Below are positions 1-29,621 of a DNA stretch of 37,304 bases, piece after piece. Numbering within the stretch: the stretch's first letter is position 1; the number at the start of each line of letters is the position of its first letter. A program made the translations under genes and the position numbers. This stretch comes from Alistipes sp. (lineage in GTDB: Bacteria; Bacteroidota; Bacteroidia; Bacteroidales; Rikenellaceae), in NCBI GenBank assembly GCA_017504265.1, contig JAFVRN010000028.1, forward strand, positions 1-37,304. Reading direction: 5' to 3'. A model generated the notes under the pieces. The model was given only the letters and a program-made list of their open reading frames with translations, was not told where the DNA came from and ran no database searches.

Positions 1-196
1 ACCCATAGAACCCACTGAACCCACAGAACTCACTGAACCTGCAGAACCCACAGAACCCACAAAACACACAGAACCCACAAAACACACAAAACACACAAAA
101 CACACAAAACACACCGAACCCATAGAACCCATAGAACCCACCGAACCCATAGAACCCACCGAACCCATAGAACCCACCGAACCCACCGAACCCACA
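1..196. repeat. 9-bp tandem repeat array (window-edge copy)
   Basis: A partial unit at 1-7 is followed by 21 consecutive 9-mers from 8 to 196. The consensus is GAACCCACA or GAACCCATA or GAACCCACC, with a block of AAACACACA variants at about 62-115. The array begins before the window, so its full length is unknown. It runs directly into a linker (acactcgggataatcagcgg) and then into the long hairpin element at 226-351. A second array of the same unit followed by nearly the same linker lies at 23084-23188. The unit length is a multiple of three, so open frames run through it (GSV/GSM-type peptides on the - strand), but nothing else supports translation. Confidence 0.9.
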
Positions 197-225
197 ACAC
201 TCGGGATAATCAGCGGTTAAACACC

Positions 226-351
226 AATTTTTGTCAGAGCGGTGCAGATGTTGCGCCGATAAAGAAGTTGGCTCGGATGGGACATACTTGGCGTATTTCC
301 CATTCGAGCCAACGATTGAGGTGCGACAGATGCGCCGCTATCACAAAAATT
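226..351 (+). repeat. Long imperfect inverted-repeat element, copy A
   Basis: The ends are AATTTTTGTCAGAGCGG and CCGCTATCACAAAAATT, which are near-perfect inverted repeats. Inside, TTGGCTCGGATGGGACATAC (273-292) pairs with CGTATTTCCCATTCGAGCC just downstream, giving one long hairpin with internal loops. The right terminus overlaps the TAA stop (350-352) of the - strand outer-membrane protein gene. Related copies are at 23218, 23364 and 27260, with a truncated one at 27168. It could act as a terminator, a structured RNA or a non-autonomous mobile repeat; the sequence does not decide between these. Confidence 0.8.
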
Positions 352-3298
352 AACGCATTGGTGGACGCCCAAACGCATGAGCATTTGTCTTGATATCCAT
401 ACCCTCATACTTCGAAATATCCTTAGAGGCATTCTTACCGAAGTAACGTAGGTTGTAGTTAAACTGTACGGTAAAGTAACGACCTACGGTAGAGTTCCAC
501 GCATTCTCGGTATAACCACTACCCACGCTACGAGCAAAGGCTGTATTCTCGTTAAGGAGGTCGTTTACGCCGACAAGAACCTCACCACGTTGATTCTTGA
601 AGAGCTTCTTACCAAGGTAGATGTTACATATAAGGTAGTCCTCATTGTAGTCGTTGGTGAAACCGATGTATTGGTTGTAGTTCACGGCTGCAGTAAGAGT
701 AAAGCCCTTCCAGAATACCCACTTCAACGTACCTGATGCCGTATGGTTGAAGTACTGATTCTTACCACCCTTAGATGCAAGTGACTGTTTGGTATCGTTA
801 AACGTACCGTTCCACTGTATAGTAAAGTCGATATTCTCCGAGATGTTACTACCGAGCGTGAACATAGCATCGTAGCCGAGGTTGCTTGTGAAGTTAAGGT
901 CTTGGTTAATCATCGAGGGGGTACGTGTCCAGCTTACACCTGCCATCATATTGAGGTTACACTTGATAGCACTGATAGGAAAGCCGTAGCTAAGGTGTGT
1001 ACGCAGCTGAGCATAGCCATCCATATTCTCATATGTAGAGTACTGCAAAGGGTTATACTCCACATCATCGATGATGATGGTATCGGGGTTATACTCTATC
1101 GACTGTCCTATGTAATCCTGTGTAAGTTGCGTAGAGAACATCCACATAAAGGTGCGACCCTTCTCGACATTCGAGCGTATGTAGTGGAAGTTGATACGAT
1201 GGTTGTACGACGATACAAGGTTTGGATTACCCTTAGACAGATACTGAGCATTCGACATATCGTATATATCCTGCAAGTTACGCACATCGGGGTTATGCGT
1301 ATATGAGTTGATGAACACGCGGATAGTATTCTGCGGGTTGAAGGCTATGTTACCCATCATAAAGTATGTAATATGGTCGAAATCGCGCTTGATATTCTCA
1401 CCCTTGACAGCACCATCAAGCGTAGAGTGCTGATAGTATACGTTTGCCACAAAGGTGTTGCGGTCCTTAGCATAGCGGAAGCCCGGGCCTATGCGGTGCT
1501 CGATACTACGGCTATCGGTCATCGACGATAGTGATACATCGGGCGTAAGGCCTATGATATCATAGTCGCTGCCTGTGATATATGCGGTCTTCTCTATATC
1601 CTGATCCTCGTAGTCGAAGCGATACTGCATACTTATCTGCGCATTCTTAGCCACAGGCTCGGTATATGTAAAGTTGGCACTAATATCTGTCTCGGACTGT
1701 GGTGCCGTAGACGACACGTAGCGTAGCTCGGGAGTTGCGATAAGCGTCTCGGGGTCGTAGAGCGTCGCCATCGTCGAGAAGCTGTTGGTCCACGAACGTG
1801 GCGTGCTACGCAGAGCATAGCGGCCATCAACGGTAATGGTACGTCCGGGCTTACCCAACAGCAAACGATACTGCAAAAATTCGCTGAAACGGAAGGCCTG
1901 CGACGAAGCCTCAGAGCCACTATATAGAATATCGTATGGCAGGCCCTTACTTGTAGCGGTCTCGCCCGACTGCTCACCATACTGTATGCTATATGGGGTA
2001 TTACCCTGCAAGCTAAAATTCGTACGCGACATTATCGACATATTCTTGTTTATCTTCCAGTCGAGACGTACATTGAAACGGTGGTTGTAGTTGCGTATCT
2101 CAGACTCGCCCTCCTGTATAAGATCGTCATCAGGAAGAGGTGCTTCGTACCATCTCTCCAAGACACTCTGATTCTTGGTATTGGTGTTGTTATAGAAGTA
2201 CGAGCCGTTGAGTTTGAGCTTATCGGCCTCACCCCACGAGTCGGAGTATTGCACGCCCACTGAGCCTACACGTGCCACACCACTCTGCGGGCGTACCATA
2301 TAACGTCCTACGCCACGGCCACGACCCATGCCGCCACCACCGCCCGTAACACCGAGGATATCCTCGAACGAGAAGTTCTGCTGATTGACATTATTGAACA
2401 GACCTATGACCGACACTCGTGAAGAGCCGTGAAAGAGGTTGATGTTACCGCCGATGTTATACTTATGGTGCGAGGTAACACTCTCCAATGCAGGGGTGTA
2501 GAGGCTGCTGGCGAAGTCCAACTCCGGAGCACCGCCATCCGTATCGGGCTGATAGCCGTAACCACCATATAGCTTACCAAATACACCCTGACGCATATTG
2601 GAATGGGTAACGATATTTATTGCCTTGTAACCCTCGCCATCGTCCATCCCCGAGAACTCGGCATTATCCGAGAGTTTATTGAATACCTCGATGCGGTCCA
2701 CCGACTCGGCAGGCAACGAGCTGAGTGCCGTAGAGACATCCTCGCCAAAGAACTCCTTGCCATCCACAAATATCTTCTTAACCTGCTCACCCTGAGCCTC
2801 AACCGAGCCATTAGATACGGTTATGCCGGGCATCTTTTTGAGAAGTCCCTCCACATCGGCATCCGAGGCCACCTTAAAGGCAGCAGCATTGTAGGCAACT
2901 GTGTCGCCATTTTGCGATGTGCGCAATGCCTGCACCTCTTTAACGACAGTCTCGATAGCAACATTCTCCGGCGAGAACTCTATATTGCCGAGGTCTACCG
3001 CACCACCGACCTTAACACTCTGCCTGTAGGTAGCATAGCCGATAAACGACACGGATAATTCATACTCACCATTACGCAGTGATGTGATGCTGAAAGCACC
3101 GCCCGCACCAGTCGTTGTATGCTTTCTATACTCTGCATCGGTTGTAGATACCACCTCGACGATAGCTCCCAACACACCCTCCTTTGTTTCGCCGTCGATA
3201 ACCTTTGCTGTAATACGTCCCGACTGCGCCCACGCACCTATCGTCATAAAGAGCATCACGGCAAGTGCAAAAATTCTTCTCATATTATTTCTATTCAT
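350..3298 (-). CDS. Outer-membrane beta-barrel receptor (TonB-dependent-like) with carboxypeptidase regulatory-like domain
   Basis: A protein of about 982 residues. An N-terminal signal peptide (core FALAVMLFMTIGAWAQ) is followed by a carboxypeptidase-regulatory-like/CNA-B beta-sandwich (about residues 27-105), a plug-like segment with KKMPGITV and KIFVDGKEFFGED (about 150-215), and a long beta-barrel region. A Gly/Arg-rich patch (GGGGGMGRGRG) lies near residue 330. This arrangement is the outer-membrane beta-barrel family common in Bacteroidota, which is related to TonB receptors but usually lacks a SusD partner; none is encoded next to it. The substrate is unknown. The ATG at 3298 is preferred over a TTG eight codons upstream (3322); an ATG at 3283 is also possible. 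The gene is monocistronic, with a candidate promoter at 3404-3434. Confidence 0.85.
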   Translation of the reverse strand: MNRNNMRRIFALAVMLFMTIGAWAQSGRITAKVIDGETKEGVLGAIVEVVSTTDAEYRKHTTTGAGGAFSITSLRNGEYELSVSFIGYATYRQSVKVGGAVDLGNIEFSPENVAIETVVKEVQALRTSQNGDTVAYNAAAFKVASDADVEGLLKKMPGITVSNGSVEAQGEQVKKIFVDGKEFFGEDVSTALSSLPAESVDRIEVFNKLSDNAEFSGMDDGEGYKAINIVTHSNMRQGVFGKLYGGYGYQPDTDGGAPELDFASSLYTPALESVTSHHKYNIGGNINLFHGSSRVSVIGLFNNVNQQNFSFEDILGVTGGGGGMGRGRGVGRYMVRPQSGVARVGSVGVQYSDSWGEADKLKLNGSYFYNNTNTKNQSVLERWYEAPLPDDDLIQEGESEIRNYNHRFNVRLDWKINKNMSIMSRTNFSLQGNTPYSIQYGEQSGETATSKGLPYDILYSGSEASSQAFRFSEFLQYRLLLGKPGRTITVDGRYALRSTPRSWTNSFSTMATLYDPETLIATPELRYVSSTAPQSETDISANFTYTEPVAKNAQISMQYRFDYEDQDIEKTAYITGSDYDIIGLTPDVSLSSMTDSRSIEHRIGPGFRYAKDRNTFVANVYYQHSTLDGAVKGENIKRDFDHITYFMMGNIAFNPQNTIRVFINSYTHNPDVRNLQDIYDMSNAQYLSKGNPNLVSSYNHRINFHYIRSNVEKGRTFMWMFSTQLTQDYIGQSIEYNPDTIIIDDVEYNPLQYSTYENMDGYAQLRTHLSYGFPISAIKCNLNMMAGVSWTRTPSMINQDLNFTSNLGYDAMFTLGSNISENIDFTIQWNGTFNDTKQSLASKGGKNQYFNHTASGTLKWVFWKGFTLTAAVNYNQYIGFTNDYNEDYLICNIYLGKKLFKNQRGEVLVGVNDLLNENTAFARSVGSGYTENAWNSTVGRYFTVQFNYNLRYFGKNASKDISKYEGMDIKTNAHAFGRPPMR

Positions 3299-3358
3299 TT
3301 TATCTTCTGGATAATTATTCAAATGCGAAAGTAATACTTTTTTCTCAAATTATAAGCC

Positions 3359-22862: not shown

Positions 22863-22900
22863 TCCTCAAGGAAAATAAAATCCATCTAAAAGTATCGTTG

Positions 22901-23037
22901 CAAGGCTGTGCCTTGCCCTCTGCTTTGCAGAGGAAAGGGTAGTTCACGCCTACGGCGTTAAAGGGTAGTTAAAGAGTAGCTGAAGGGAGCGTGGCTTTTT
23001 GTTTTGCAGGGCGAAGCCCTGCCACTGCAAAGCAGTG
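22901..23037. repeat. Cluster of five short palindromes with 3-nt centres
   Basis: Five perfect arms-plus-triloop palindromes: CAAGGC-TGT-GCCTTG (22901-22915), CCTCTGC-TTT-GCAGAGG (22917-22933), ACGCC-TAC-GGCGT (22946-22958), GCAGGGC-GAA-GCCCTGC (23006-23022) and CACTGC-AAA-GCAGTG (23023-23037). The last two are adjacent with no gap. They sit between the plsC promoter and the 9-bp repeats. The intervening sequence (22934-23005) has repeated AAAGGGTAGTT strings. Confidence 0.75.
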
Positions 23038-23038
23038 T

Positions 23039-23188
23039 GGGTCAGATGGGTTAAATGGGTCCAATGGGTCAGATGGGGATTTTCCCACCGAACCCACAGA
23101 ACCCATAGAACCCACAGAACCCACAGAACTCATAGAACCCACAGAACCCATAGAACCCATAGAACCCACCGAACCCACCGAACCCACA
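23039..23188. repeat. Inverted 9-bp repeat arrays flanking a short loop
   Basis: Four 9-mers of type GGGTCAGAT/GGGTTAAAT (23039-23074) are followed by GGGGATTTTCCC and then eleven 9-mers of type CCCACAGAA/CCCATAGAA (23084-23182) plus a partial unit. The left units are roughly the reverse complement of the right units, so the block can fold as a hairpin with GGG/CCC pairing every 9 nt. The right array matches the array at 8-196. Confidence 0.8.
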
Positions 23189-23217
23189 ACACTCGGGATA
23201 ATTAGCGGTAAGACCCC

Positions 23218-23343
23218 AATTTTTGTCAGAGTGGCGCAGATGTTGCGCCGATAAAGAAGTTGGCTCGGATGGGACATACTAAGCGTATTTCCCATTCGAG
23301 CCAACAATTGAGGTGCGACAGATGCGCCGCTATCACGAAAATC
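23218..23343 (+). repeat. Long imperfect inverted-repeat element, copy B
   Basis: Nearly identical to copy A (226-351), including the linker before it (acactcgggataattagcgg). It has the same terminal arms, the same central hairpin (TTGGCTCGGATGGGACATAC paired with CGTATTTCCCATTCGAGCC) and a changed apex tetranucleotide (TAAG for TTGG). It ends 20 nt before copy C. Confidence 0.8.
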
Positions 23344-23363
23344 CCAATCAGCGGTTAAACCCC

Positions 23364-23489
23364 AATTTTTGTCAGAAGGGGTTAGCTGTGGCCTCGATTA
23401 AGAGATTGCCCCGGATGGATAGTACTTGACGTACATTCCATTCGGGGCAATGATTGAGAGGTCGCAGATGACCCCTTATCACAAAAATT
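23364..23489 (+). repeat. Long imperfect inverted-repeat element, copy C (divergent)
   Basis: Same architecture as A and B but with different arm sequence that still pairs. AGAAGGGGTTAGC faces GATGACCCCTT, and TTGCCCCGGATGG faces CCATTCGGGGCAA (A and B have TTGGCTCG/CGAGCCAA). The apex stem is GTAC/GTAC in place of ATAC/GTAT. Termini AATTTTTGTCAGA and TTATCACAAAAATT are conserved. Confidence 0.8.
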
Positions 23490-23490
23490 A

Positions 23491-23508
23491 GCCGCTATCA
23501 CAAAAATT
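23491..23508 (+). repeat. Solo right end of the inverted-repeat element
   Basis: GCCGCTATCACAAAAATT, identical to the last 18 bases of copy A, stands alone directly after copy C. It overlaps the dnaA stop codon (23507-23509). It suggests that copy C was inserted into, or recombined with, an earlier copy at the dnaA 3' end. Confidence 0.7.
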
Positions 23509-24910
23509 AATTGCGTCCTGTAACAATCCGCCCAATCTCCTCAATCTGGAGTTTGAACTGCTTGTCGGTATCCATCATATCTGAGACAGCCTTACAGCTG
23601 TGAAGTACCGTTGCATGGTTACGGCCACCTATCGAAGAGCCGATGACGGTAAGAGGTGCCTTGGTATGCTGCTTTGCAAGATACATAGCCACCTGTCGTG
23701 CTTGCGCCACATCGCGTGTGCGCTTAGCCGAGTTGAAGGTATCGAGCTCGATGTTGTAGTAGTCACATACGACCTTTACGATGTGGTCGATGGTAATCTC
23801 CTTCTGCGTGAGCTTCACATATACCTTCAATATATCCTTAGCCAACGAGATGGTTATCTTGCGACCCAGGAACGAAGCATTTGCTATGAGCGATGAGAGC
23901 GCGCCCTCAATCTCACGCACGTTGGCCGAGATGTTGTCGGCCAAATAGCTTACAACCTCCTCCGGAATGTTAGCCCCGAGACGCTGTGCCTTGGCACGTA
24001 TAATCTTAACCTTGGTCTCGTAGTCGGGGATACTGAGGTATGCCGACAATCCCCACTTAAAACGGGTAAGCAATCGTTGCTCGATATCTTTTAGCTCCAC
24101 GGGTGGCTTATCCGAGGTAAGGATAAGTTGCTTTCCTGCGAGCTGCAAGTGGTTGAAGATATTGAAGAAGGCATTCTGTGTACCTGTCTTGCCCGTAAGC
24201 TCCTGAATATCGTCTATGATGAGGACATCGACCATCTGATAGAAGTGGATGAAGTCGGTAATCTCTCCGTTCTTATAGGCCGTCTGGAACTGTGCCTGGA
24301 ACTTATTCATAGAGACGTACAACACCTGTAACTCGGGATGACGCTGACGCACCTCGTGTCCTATGGCCTGTACTATATGTGTCTTACCCAATCCCGAATC
24401 GCCATAGATATACAGCGGATTGAAGGCATTGCCTCCGGGTGACACAGCCACCGCCATACCTGCCGAGCGAGCCAAGCGATTGCACTCGCCCTCGATGTGA
24501 TTTTCGAAGGTATAGTTGGCATTGAGCTGCGGATCGAAAGTTATGCGTCGAAGACCCGGAATTACAAAAGGATTTTTTATATTTGCAGTGTCGGTAGGTG
24601 CTGCAAACTTAGGTAGGGCCGAGGCATCGGCACTTACGGCCTGCTGCATCGTACGACGAGGCACGGCATAGCAGAGCTTGATACCTGCGCCATACAACTC
24701 CGCGATGATCGGATCGAGATAGCGTAGATAGCGTTTCTCGATGCTTGACACGAAGCTCTCGTTAGGCACCCTGAGACGTAGCGTCGAGCCATCGAAACCT
24801 ATAGGCCAAATAGGCTTGATCCACTTGGCAAACTCCTCCTCGGTAAGAGAGGGGCGAAGCTTGTCAAGGCAATCCTGCCACAAATCGCTATATGTATCGG
24901 CCTGCATCAT
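23507..24910 (-). CDS. dnaA: Chromosomal replication initiator protein DnaA
   Basis: A 467-residue AAA+ initiator. Domain I is YSDLWQDCLDKLRPSLTEEEFAKWI (about 6-30). The AAA+ core has Walker A GDSGLGKT (170-177), Walker B VLIIDDIQEL, and an arginine finger region QRLLTRFKWG. The DnaA-box-binding helix-turn-helix is at the end (ARQVAMYLAKQHT and GGRNHATVLHSCK). A longer frame with a GTG at 25045 adds 45 residues of unlike composition, so the ATG at 24910 (or the adjacent 24907) is chosen. The stop lies inside the repeat end at 23491-23508. Confidence 0.95.
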   Translation of the reverse strand: MMQADTYSDLWQDCLDKLRPSLTEEEFAKWIKPIWPIGFDGSTLRLRVPNESFVSSIEKRYLRYLDPIIAELYGAGIKLCYAVPRRTMQQAVSADASALPKFAAPTDTANIKNPFVIPGLRRITFDPQLNANYTFENHIEGECNRLARSAGMAVAVSPGGNAFNPLYIYGDSGLGKTHIVQAIGHEVRQRHPELQVLYVSMNKFQAQFQTAYKNGEITDFIHFYQMVDVLIIDDIQELTGKTGTQNAFFNIFNHLQLAGKQLILTSDKPPVELKDIEQRLLTRFKWGLSAYLSIPDYETKVKIIRAKAQRLGANIPEEVVSYLADNISANVREIEGALSSLIANASFLGRKITISLAKDILKVYVKLTQKEITIDHIVKVVCDYYNIELDTFNSAKRTRDVAQARQVAMYLAKQHTKAPLTVIGSSIGGRNHATVLHSCKAVSDMMDTDKQFKLQIEEIGRIVTGRN

Positions 24911-25155
24911 CGCTACCAGTTCTTTACAAATTATATTATCACTATTTATCAAGCAGTTATCCTCGCAACTCACACCCCAAATAAAAGCCTGCCTACATTG
25001 TCGTATGACACATGCCACTTTTGGAGAGGGGCGATAAACGGTCACTAAAACAGTCTTTTATTTCTGTTTCAGCACGTTATGAAAACCGCCTGATTTTTTG
25101 CTTTAACAACCCTTGAAAATGCCTTGGCAAAAGGGATGTTTTGACATTGCAAAGA

Positions 25156-27152: not shown

Positions 27153-27167
27153 TATTATAATATAGGT

Positions 27168-27247
27168 AAGGCTCGGATGGAACATACTCGGCGTATTTAC
27201 CATTAGAACTGATAACTGAAATGTGAAAGGTAGCTAATATCACAAAA
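27168..27247 (+). repeat. Truncated, degenerate inverted-repeat element, copy D
   Basis: GGCTCGGATGGAACATAC and CGTATTTACCATTAGAAC match the central hairpin of copies A, B and E with several pair-breaking changes. The right arm (TGAAATGTGAAAGGTAGC, then TATCACAAAA) is present but the left outer arm is missing. It precedes the intact copy E by 12 nt. Confidence 0.65.
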
Positions 27248-27259
27248 TCTTGCAACAGT

Positions 27260-27386
27260 GATTTTTCGTCAGAGAGGGTTAGATTTGGCATTGACACGAA
27301 ATTGGCTCGGATGGGACATACTTGACGTATTTCCCATTCGAGCCAATGACTGAAATGCCAAAGATAGCCCTCTATCACGATAAATC
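27260..27386 (+). repeat. Long imperfect inverted-repeat element, copy E
   Basis: The outer ends GATTTTTCGTCAGAG and CTATCACGATAAATC pair. Next, GGGTTAGATTTGGCATT faces AATGCCAAAGATAGCCC, then the same central hairpin as copy A. The outer arms differ from A, B and C but still pair. The right end covers the TGA stop (27375-27377) and the last three codons of the phosphate transporter gene. Confidence 0.8.
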
Positions 27387-29591
27387 CACGAAGTGTTCGA
27401 GCGACTTCATTATATTTCGTGAGTGAAGAACCATGGTCTTAGTCTCGGTGAGGATGTTGAAGAAGAGCATATTTGCGGATGACGAACCACCGGTATCGCG
27501 TAGTCGGCGAAGCTGATTTTGCATCACCTCATCGATAAGGTCGAACATCTTATCTCGCTTATTTAGCACCATCTCCATATTCTCGAACGAACGTGTGCGC
27601 AGCATTGTATTAATATCGCCGAAGATATCCTCCACGCGGTCGTTGATACGTTTAAGGTCGTATACCTGCTCCTTGGATAGTCCTGTATGGTTGTTGTCCA
27701 CATGCTTATAGCAAGGACGGGCTATATGTAGTAGAGCCTTACTTGTCTCGGATATGTAGTCCACAACCTGAACGTAATAGTGACCCGTACTAATCTCGCT
27801 ATCCTCCAATGAGCGCAACAGAGGCATTATCTCGTACTTCTGCTGGCGTGTATATTGGTAGAACTCCTCGGCCTCGCGCACCATATCACGCAGCACCTTA
27901 CGATTCTCTTTGAATACGGCTACAATCGTGCGGTCGTAGATGACCGTAACCTTCTCCATTGATGAGCATACCAACTCGGTATATGTCATCAACGCCTCCT
28001 CGGGGCTCTTTTTGAGTGTATCGCCCAACTTCGCCACAGCCGATGCCTCGGTACTCTTCTCTTTCTTCTTCTTCGAGAAGTTGCTCTTAACGATAAGGAA
28101 TACACAGAGTATGGTGACGCATACGATCGCTACCTTACCACCATAGGCAAGTAGCAGCGTGACACCCAAGGCTATAATAAATCCACCCAAGGCCGTAACA
28201 AACCAGCCGGTAATAACGGTCATAACACCTGTAATGCGGTATACGGCACTCTCTCTACCCCACGCTCTATCGGCAAGCGACGAGCCCATAGAGACCATAA
28301 ATACCACATAGGTAGTAGAGAGCGGCAATTTGAGCTGTGTACCAACCGATATAAGTATGGCTGCTGCCGTCAGGTTTACCGTAGCACGTATCAGGTCGTA
28401 GTTCACATCGCCACGCTCCTCCTCCGGAAGTTGTTCAAAGCGATGGTTGATAAACTCGCGCAGACTCTTAGGGGTGATAGCAGCCAGCGCATCATTCATA
28501 TGACGCACGCCACGCACTATACCACGTGATACGGGCGATGCATCACTATTTGTCGGTGCTGACTCGCTCTGCGACGACAGAGCACGTTCGGTCTCAATGA
28601 CACGCAATGCCTTTTTAGAGGTAAACAACGTAACGACCATAACCAAACCGGCAGCACACATAATCCAGAAGTTAGCCTTCGTAGGATTAGAGAGAGCAAC
28701 CATGGAGCTTAAGTCGGCACCCTCGCTATGAGCATACATATATGAATCGTAGCCTGCATATGGAACTCCGATAAAGTTCACAAGGTCGTTACCGGCAAAG
28801 GCCAAGGCTAACGAGAATGTTCCGGCGAGGATAGATACTCTGAGGATATTCACCTTGCAGCGTTGCAATACCCACAGCAATAGCGAGCTGCCTGCCCACA
28901 GAATCAGTAGCGACAAACCTGTATTCTCGTTCACAAACTCTTTGAGTACCTCCGGAATAAGAGTTGTACTCTTCAAACCCTTGAATACGGTGAAGTATAT
29001 GATGCCCGCCATTGTGACACCACACCATAGCGCACCATAGCGATTGAACAGCTTGTGATAGCGGAACGAGAATATAAAGCGCGATATATACATCAGGAGA
29101 TGACCCGTAAAGAAGGCCAGCACCACCGAAATCAAGATACCCGATACAATGGCCAACGCATTTCCCGAATTGATAAAGTCACCAAGGTCGGCTGTGGTAT
29201 AACCGCCCCAGATGTTGTACAGAGCGAGTGCCATAGCCGAGCCAAGCAAGCCAAAGACGAGTGACACGGTAGTCGAAGTTGGCAGACCAAGCGAATTGTA
29301 TATATCAAGCAGGATGATATTCGAGAGCATCATACCCAGGAATAGTATCATAATCTCCTGATAGGAAAACATATTCGGATAGAATACACCGCTACGAGCC
29401 ACATCCATCATACCGCTCGATGTCATAACACCTACCATTACACCACAGCCGGCAATAGTCAGTATTATACGCTTCGAGGCCGCCTTCGAACCAAATGCAG
29501 AATTAAGAAAGTTTACAGCATCGTTCGACACACCGACCACGATGCCCATTACCGCCAACAAGGCAAGTGTAATGACAATAAATAGATCCAT
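27375..29591 (-). CDS. PiT-family inorganic phosphate transporter with PhoU-like C-terminal domain
   Basis: A 738-residue inner-membrane carrier. The two PHO4 signatures are VGVSNDAVNFLNSAFGSKA near the N-terminus and AGNDLVNFIGVPYAG near residue 270. About 11-12 membrane helices are split by a cytoplasmic loop (about 335-395) and end near 510. The remaining ~225 residues are helical and soluble, resembling a PhoU-like regulatory domain, a known fusion in Bacteroidota. It takes up phosphate with H+ or Na+. The ATG at 29591 is preferred; an in-frame ATG at 29612 is possible. It is divergent from a two-component system and has an attenuator-like leader. Confidence 0.88.
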   Translation of the reverse strand: MDLFIVITLALLAVMGIVVGVSNDAVNFLNSAFGSKAASKRIILTIAGCGVMVGVMTSSGMMDVARSGVFYPNMFSYQEIMILFLGMMLSNIILLDIYNSLGLPTSTTVSLVFGLLGSAMALALYNIWGGYTTADLGDFINSGNALAIVSGILISVVLAFFTGHLLMYISRFIFSFRYHKLFNRYGALWCGVTMAGIIYFTVFKGLKSTTLIPEVLKEFVNENTGLSLLILWAGSSLLLWVLQRCKVNILRVSILAGTFSLALAFAGNDLVNFIGVPYAGYDSYMYAHSEGADLSSMVALSNPTKANFWIMCAAGLVMVVTLFTSKKALRVIETERALSSQSESAPTNSDASPVSRGIVRGVRHMNDALAAITPKSLREFINHRFEQLPEEERGDVNYDLIRATVNLTAAAILISVGTQLKLPLSTTYVVFMVSMGSSLADRAWGRESAVYRITGVMTVITGWFVTALGGFIIALGVTLLLAYGGKVAIVCVTILCVFLIVKSNFSKKKKEKSTEASAVAKLGDTLKKSPEEALMTYTELVCSSMEKVTVIYDRTIVAVFKENRKVLRDMVREAEEFYQYTRQQKYEIMPLLRSLEDSEISTGHYYVQVVDYISETSKALLHIARPCYKHVDNNHTGLSKEQVYDLKRINDRVEDIFGDINTMLRTRSFENMEMVLNKRDKMFDLIDEVMQNQLRRLRDTGGSSSANMLFFNILTETKTMVLHSRNIMKSLEHFVDLS

Positions 29592-29621
29592 ATTAAAGAT
29601 ATTTATGAGCATCGATAGTAC

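Follow-up and report, generated by a model that had tools for sequence, protein, structure and literature searches.

A covarying hairpin repeat family seated at gene stop codons in Alistipes

The stretch of DNA analysed here (the window, 37,304 nucleotides from a draft genome of Alistipes sp.) carries copies of a hairpin repeat on its plus strand next to genes that read on the minus strand. Copy A (type 1, 226..351) overlaps with its final bases the TTA stop codon (350-352) of a gene for an outer-membrane beta-barrel protein (350..3322). Copies B (type 1, 23218..23343) and C (type 2, 23364..23489) form an array that abuts the stop codon of dnaA (23507..25045), B being the distal copy and C the proximal full copy; a 19-nt right-end fragment of an additional copy (23491..23509) follows C and ends on the dnaA stop TTA (23507-23509). 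In the case of copy E (27260..27386) the stop codon (TGA, 27375-27377) of a gene of the phosphate transporter family (PHO4, 27375..29612) lies inside the TATCA of the copy itself. A degenerate copy, D, at about 27153..27250 has lost the fold.

The repeat unit is about 126 nt long, or about 146 with an 18-nt left linker (AATCAGCGG..., 208..225 in the case of copy A), which also precedes B and C. To the left of the linker of copy A there is a 9-bp minisatellite, (AACCCACAG)n, at 1..207, terminating in ACTCGGGAT, and the left arm of the dnaA array (22898..23200) is made up of short palindromes, a G-rich block and minisatellite. At both places in the window (1-207 and about 23070-23200) the minisatellite faces a complementary G-rich block and small palindromes.

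Read from its base, the hairpin has first a 9-pair outer stem that ends in GT/AC; a three-by-three loop CAG/ATC leads to a 9-pair stem, and a two-by-two loop, often GA/GA, to another stem of 9 pairs. Beyond an uneven loop lies the central stem, with ATAC/GTAT or GTAC/GTAC as its cap. A, B, C and E have minimum free energies between -70.6 and -75.6 kcal/mol, with z from -10.6 to -11.9, and 200 shuffles gave no fold as good. The complements of these four copies also fold significantly, to a lesser degree (-55.1 to -61.8, z -6.4 to -9.0), and the decayed copy D has no significant fold (z +0.83). A preliminary description, made from the letters of the window, had recognised four full copies of one long two-part hairpin, with stem pairs that differ in sequence and yet keep their pairing, and both points are borne out at the coordinates given above, the fold being made up of several stem blocks. 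The tandem G.A site that it reported is present as AGAT/AGAT in A, B and E, with AGCT/AGAT in C.

That description also proposed that the copies are a structured repeat family under selection on the fold, and this is supported by strong covariation. Among 7 related copies there are changes on both sides at 20 of the 47 pairs, with 97.9% of cells paired. With 62 copies less than 80% identical the number of doubly changed pairs rises to 39 of 47, with 92.3% of cells paired in an alignment (A6) from which 8 of the 70 representatives are absent on account of their length or, in most cases, because they aligned poorly, an omission that raises the percentage; before it, pairing averaged 83% (68 representatives and one consensus, with a simpler mapping). 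The covariation score for the 62 copies is 0.609, as against at most 0.112 for slid partners and a mean of 0.198 for shuffled ones. In the finder that collected copies we required both GTCAG and TATCA, pairing at 7 of the 9 positions of the first inner stem, and a plus-strand energy below -30. The outer stem in the 62 copies is 95.7% paired with all 7 variable pairs doubly changed, and beyond its GT/A this stem was ignored by the finder, although some loci came by way of a covariance model (R1) that includes it. Some of the paired changes are exchanges of whole modules and not single compensating mutations, as the apex was swapped on both arms together between two genomes. The preliminary description missed these modular changes, as it did the strand preference and the seat on stop codons.

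That description knew of no named family with such features. There was no Rfam match at the gathering threshold over the whole window and none at E up to 1 for four related loci. A relaxed search of 23100-23600 gave five weak matches to snoRNA and microRNA families, with E of 0.42-3.7 and all far under gathering scores. Among the open-licence papers listed in literature searches there was none that we recognised as a description of the hairpin family.

The genome from which the window comes is a draft of 1.83 Mb in 48 contigs, 90% complete. There were 69 blastn matches to the hairpin in it, and a profile search of stretches fetched from it yielded 40 arrays with 74 copies, fragments counted; the true total is above 74, as covariance models list extra copies (for example C13:1, C43:30293 and C34:17145). 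The arrays have one unit (18 arrays), two (13), three (7), four (1) or five (1), with tandem units separated by the linker of about 18 nt or by none, and the copies sort into about six stem types. The outer stem is an inverted repeat whose sequence varies among genomes. Two mosaic copies (L041 and L050) have arms from two different types and fold poorly, and a type 1 copy at L037 carries a type 2 apex, which suggests that hairpin types recombine within the conserved apex.

The minisatellite left arm is present in 25 of the 40 arrays. An alternative left arm (TTTAAGGAGTATAGGG...CCCAAGTGGGAAAGCCATAACC...) was seen before 6 of the 40, coinciding with contig breaks; the loci with this arm are L034, L035, L036, L043, L044 and L065 (contig ends) and L069. 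At L038, L039 and L046, as at 23491-23509 in the window, a full copy is separated from the stop codon by a right-end fragment of some 19-23 nt, and there are left-end fragments at L033 and L049.

The position of the hairpins relative to genes is very regular. At the end of 36 of the 40 arrays there is the stop codon of a gene on the opposite strand, either 5-7 nt past TATCAC or within TATCA; of the other four arrays two run into the end of the sequence, a third has its stop at 15 nt and the last lacks one. Counting only reading frames of at least 100 codons with a stop at -4 to +15, the figures are 30 of 38 for the same genome, 13 of 19 and 13 of 17 for two other genomes, G072 and G058, and 25 of 35 for named records, among which G072 and G058 recur so that the sets overlap. 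In the mirror-image control, at the other end of the hairpin, the count was 1 of 91, and at shifted positions it was 0.7-2.1%. The stops used include TAA, TAG and TGA. Outside the genus an opposite-strand stop (reading frames of at least 60 codons, counted without a control) is found at -4 to +15 in 15 of 26 loci, and the 11 other loci include three within arrays, one cut short and one badly anchored. At one locus of G072, presumably that of rplS, the hairpin comes after the native terminator and not the stop. A short target such as TAA combined with purging of harmful insertions should leave intergenic copies elsewhere, and that is not the main pattern.

The hairpins do not shorten the native protein in the two genes for which we compared orthologues. 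In the case of dnaA there is an element at the stop in 8 of 30 orthologues from the genus, and, with the element or without it, DnaA finishes on the aligned residue or no more than two codons away from it. For PHO4 the signature of the element was found in 11 of 29 orthologues (30 were taken, one with too little sequence), and among those more than 65% identical, whether they carry it or not, the end is no more than three codons from the aligned one; two distant orthologues are longer at this end, by 22 and 27 codons. The occupation of dnaA and PHO4 that many species share could be an old inheritance.

The two strands of the hairpin are not equivalent. The strand reading GTCAGA...TATCAC folds better in 58 of 61 unique copies from the genome of the window, the complement in two, with one tie; this set was found by sequence similarity with both boxes kept, and the bias holds in copies not chosen by fold. 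The three exceptions all belong to stem type 4, for which the gene strand has a fold that is about as good or a little better. In the larger set of 182 unique finder copies, drawn from all fetched loci (other finder runs and the stop-codon counts used 80 of 115 apex-pattern loci), the plus strand folds better in 181, with means of -70.7 and -55.3 kcal/mol, a result favoured by construction as the finder demanded pairing and low energy on that strand. On the folding strand G.U and A.C oppositions are in the ratio 295:59, or 217:53 without the stem that the finder required, and strand-biased mutation could account for part of the G.U excess. The better-folding strand is antisense to the gene at the right end of the hairpin. 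A locus in another family (L369) is the opposite, at -30.4 for the folding strand and -45.0 for the gene strand.

Comparison of orthologous stops in G058 and G072 shows that the occupants of a site change. At 5 sites with intact copies in both genomes the hairpins are 68-94% alike, and at 2 further G072 sites G058 has no intact copy. A copy in G058 matches one from a different locus of G072 exactly, but is 88% like its own orthologue, and hairpins of different types can be found at orthologous sites. The simplest reading of these sequences is that copies move, or convert one another, between fixed sites.

With regard to host range, the apex pattern occurs in at least 115 stretches of the genome collection, and the 80 matches listed are all titled Alistipes sp. 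or Rikenellaceae bacterium, many of them from ruminant or deer hindgut. No viral contig matched the apex pattern, the one pattern tried there. Model R1 matched 47 of 120 relatives, 46 from the genus (the genome of the window included) and one from another family. A broader model matched 12 of 393 Bacteroidales genomes in seven families, again including our own, in a survey with rough E-values and 8 candidates scored per genome. The two boxes drift outside the genus, for example to TTTCAGA...TTATGAG.

The reading that we tentatively prefer, and which could well be correct, is that of a mobile non-coding hairpin for which the folded single strand is the form recognised, and which is set at the ends of genes, in the position of the terminator. 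Its starting points are the covarying fold, the strand bias, the seat on stop codons, the unshortened proteins of dnaA and PHO4 and the rarity of ordinary terminators where these two genes are occupied, the tandem arrays and the turnover at fixed sites. Under this proposal the unit would be recognised as the folded strand antisense to the adjacent gene and would be placed at the 3' end of that gene, at its native stop codon; further units would accumulate in tandem at a stop already occupied, and a hairpin once seated would substitute for the ordinary terminator. The acting form would be single-stranded DNA and not RNA, the hairpin would presumably be moved by a recombinase or transposase, and it would end transcription.

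The last of these steps also stands at the centre of the alternative that survives best, which we consider possible but on the whole doubtful: that the hairpin works on the gene strand, to terminate transcription or to stabilise the 3' end of the mRNA, and has spread between genes by gene conversion, its seat at the stop reflecting a role in forming the 3' end. Ordinary terminators are indeed scarce at occupied dnaA and PHO4 ends, with an intrinsic terminator lying within 150 nt of 1 of 19 occupied ends, compared with 16 of 40 unoccupied ones (Fisher p 0.006), in counts for which a strict terminator finder was used that overlooks some terminators visible by eye at empty sites, and in which some sites counted as empty resemble decayed or variant copies (L106, L111, L119 and L291). 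At a locus whose left gene we take to be folC, the convergent genes are separated in G072 by 50 nt that include a two-way terminator, and in G058 by about 15 nt and a hairpin, with no terminator seen beside it. The hairpin occupies the position of the terminator at this locus, which is the sole clean filled/empty pair seen, from two genomes about 90% alike, and either state may be the older. The gene strand also folds well, and in some type 4 copies slightly better than the other. There is no run of T after the last stem, but many copies have on the gene strand a T-rich stretch after the central stem, which is strong in some types and reaches 8 T in one dnaA copy. That stretch is weak in many copies, however, and the outer and second stems lie beyond it, so that their covariation is not explained by a terminator, and the opposite strand folds better in all but three of the 61 copies.

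The same strand-specific fold, with its internal loops, tandem G.A and covariation, would also be expected of a functional RNA made from the folding strand, antisense to the 3' end of the gene. We think this improbable. Of 41 loci with a callable left neighbour (15 more have none), 25 have this neighbour reading in the same direction as the right gene, and in those 25 neither gene transcribes the folding strand; tandem units set about 18 nt apart or directly joined, and the lack of an Rfam match at threshold, also speak against it.

Modular changes on both arms and the mosaic copies could be taken to mean that the hairpins are neutral palindromes perfected by template switching or arm-to-arm conversion, with the compensatory changes then only apparent. 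We think this equally improbable: copying between arms should erase wobble pairs and internal loops, whereas the loops persist and G.U pairs are concentrated on one strand, neither the G.U excess nor the strand bias is expected of palindromes kept in this way, and the association with stop codons would have no explanation. Least probable is a retro-element for which RNA of the folding strand would be the template, in the manner of a bacterial SINE: the right-end fragments beside stops resemble 5'-truncated copies, but left-end fragments are found too, the draft of our genome has no match to RVT_1, and RVT_1 is present in 15 of 46 genomes with the hairpin and 9 of 27 without, with no correlation.

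Returning to the mobile hairpin, we looked among 111 genomes of the genus, all drafts, for an enzyme that could move it. The Y1 transposase family (PF01797) was matched in 1 of the 111, which is not the genome of the window (90% complete), and no integron integrase (TIGR02249) was above the curated cut-off in any. No mobilising partner emerged, as Y1 transposase, integron integrase and reverse transcriptase do not fit. Tyrosine-recombinase matches below the cut-off were found in all 111 genomes and in all 14 control genomes, and as they are present throughout they cannot be told apart as candidates. A four-helix-bundle reading frame beside a broken copy (C41:82412, L069) was also considered and set aside: it is present in 15 of 27 genomes with the hairpin and 2 of 18 without (p 0.004, uncorrected for kinship), but its homologue loci have no whole hairpin, neither the 10 that were fetched (L248-L257, with half a motif at L249, our own copy) nor L072. 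At L069 (1913-2460) the pieces of this reading frame have both the alternative left arm and the broken hairpin as neighbours; they overlap in different frames, and match TIGR02436 under and TIGR04258 above cut-off.

With regard to known systems, the hairpin resembles BOX, REP or attC in various respects, with membership in none of them established. The BOX element of Streptococcus pneumoniae is described as a modular interspersed repeat with a variable number of central modules and a predicted RNA fold, and it encodes the stop codon of 36 of 58 annotated overlapping genes, without strong evidence of truncation (PMC3049150). The hairpin arrays have 1-5 units with a left arm, and by description the likeness lies in the modular make-up, the variable number of units, the predicted fold and the overlap with stop codons. 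BOX differs in having distinct A, B and C modules, whereas here the hairpin is itself the repeated unit, with variable stem sequence, and the seat on the stop codon is the rule. YPAL (RU-2) of Yersinia is reported to be an intergenic palindrome of about 168 bp with empty and filled sites, expressed with upstream genes, and with target duplications of 3-26 bp at or beside dyad symmetry (PMC2229807). For the hairpin no such duplication was defined, and the folC pair has no clear one. Among known elements BOX comes closest in position, and YPAL in size and mobility.

The REP sequences that are associated with RAYT (Y1) transposases are known for strand-specific folding. They are extragenic imperfect palindromes, often in arrays (PMC2817692, PMC3733652), with a palindrome length of 20-40 bp (PMC3733652). 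Our hairpin differs in its length of about 126 nt, and the Y1 family is unmatched in 110 of the 111 genus genomes.

In integrons the attC sites lie directly after the stop codon of the gene, and their R box has the consensus GTTRRRY/RYYYAAC. By eye, and at unit ends only, GTTAAAC is present in some linkers of the hairpin and not in others. The attC site is a hairpin of little sequence conservation with an active bottom strand (PMC2727003). Our hairpin has a strand-specific fold as predicted from sequence, and attC is nearest in showing how a hairpin of low conservation with one active strand can be recognised. However, there is no integron integrase over cut-off, gene cassettes were not seen and the sites are scattered behind ordinary genes. 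A wider proposal, that hairpins folding as single strands are inserted at stops by a recombinase throughout the Bacteroidales as a chromosomal counterpart of attC, we think unlikely; if true, genes might acquire such sites by this route.

Porphyromonas gingivalis is in the same order as the host of the hairpin. Its BrickBuilt MITE is intergenic and contains a minisatellite, with 23-nt repeats and IS-like terminal inverted repeats (PMC4596501). The minisatellite is a likeness to the left arm of the hairpin arrays; as a difference, the term "stop codon" is absent from the text of PMC4596501.

Some gut bacteria of the Bacteroidales hold dozens of these hairpins of about 126 letters, and the combination of changing letters, a kept fold and a near-exact ending on the stop codons of ordinary genes is unusual. 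Interspersed repeats are usually recognised by sequence, and as this family conserves two short boxes (partly an artefact of selection) and its fold, plain sequence searches will miss much of it. The seat on stop codons without shortening of the protein, in the two genes compared, poses the puzzle of how the element locates the point where a reading frame stops; with their patchy occurrence and rapid change, the copies provide many natural test sites. The hairpin may explain gene ends in Bacteroidales that are without ordinary terminators. Near dnaA in related genomes (L112 and L128) there are what we take to be repeat-like sequences of another kind (GAGCGAAGCGATAGCGCAGTCGAAACATCTC and similar).
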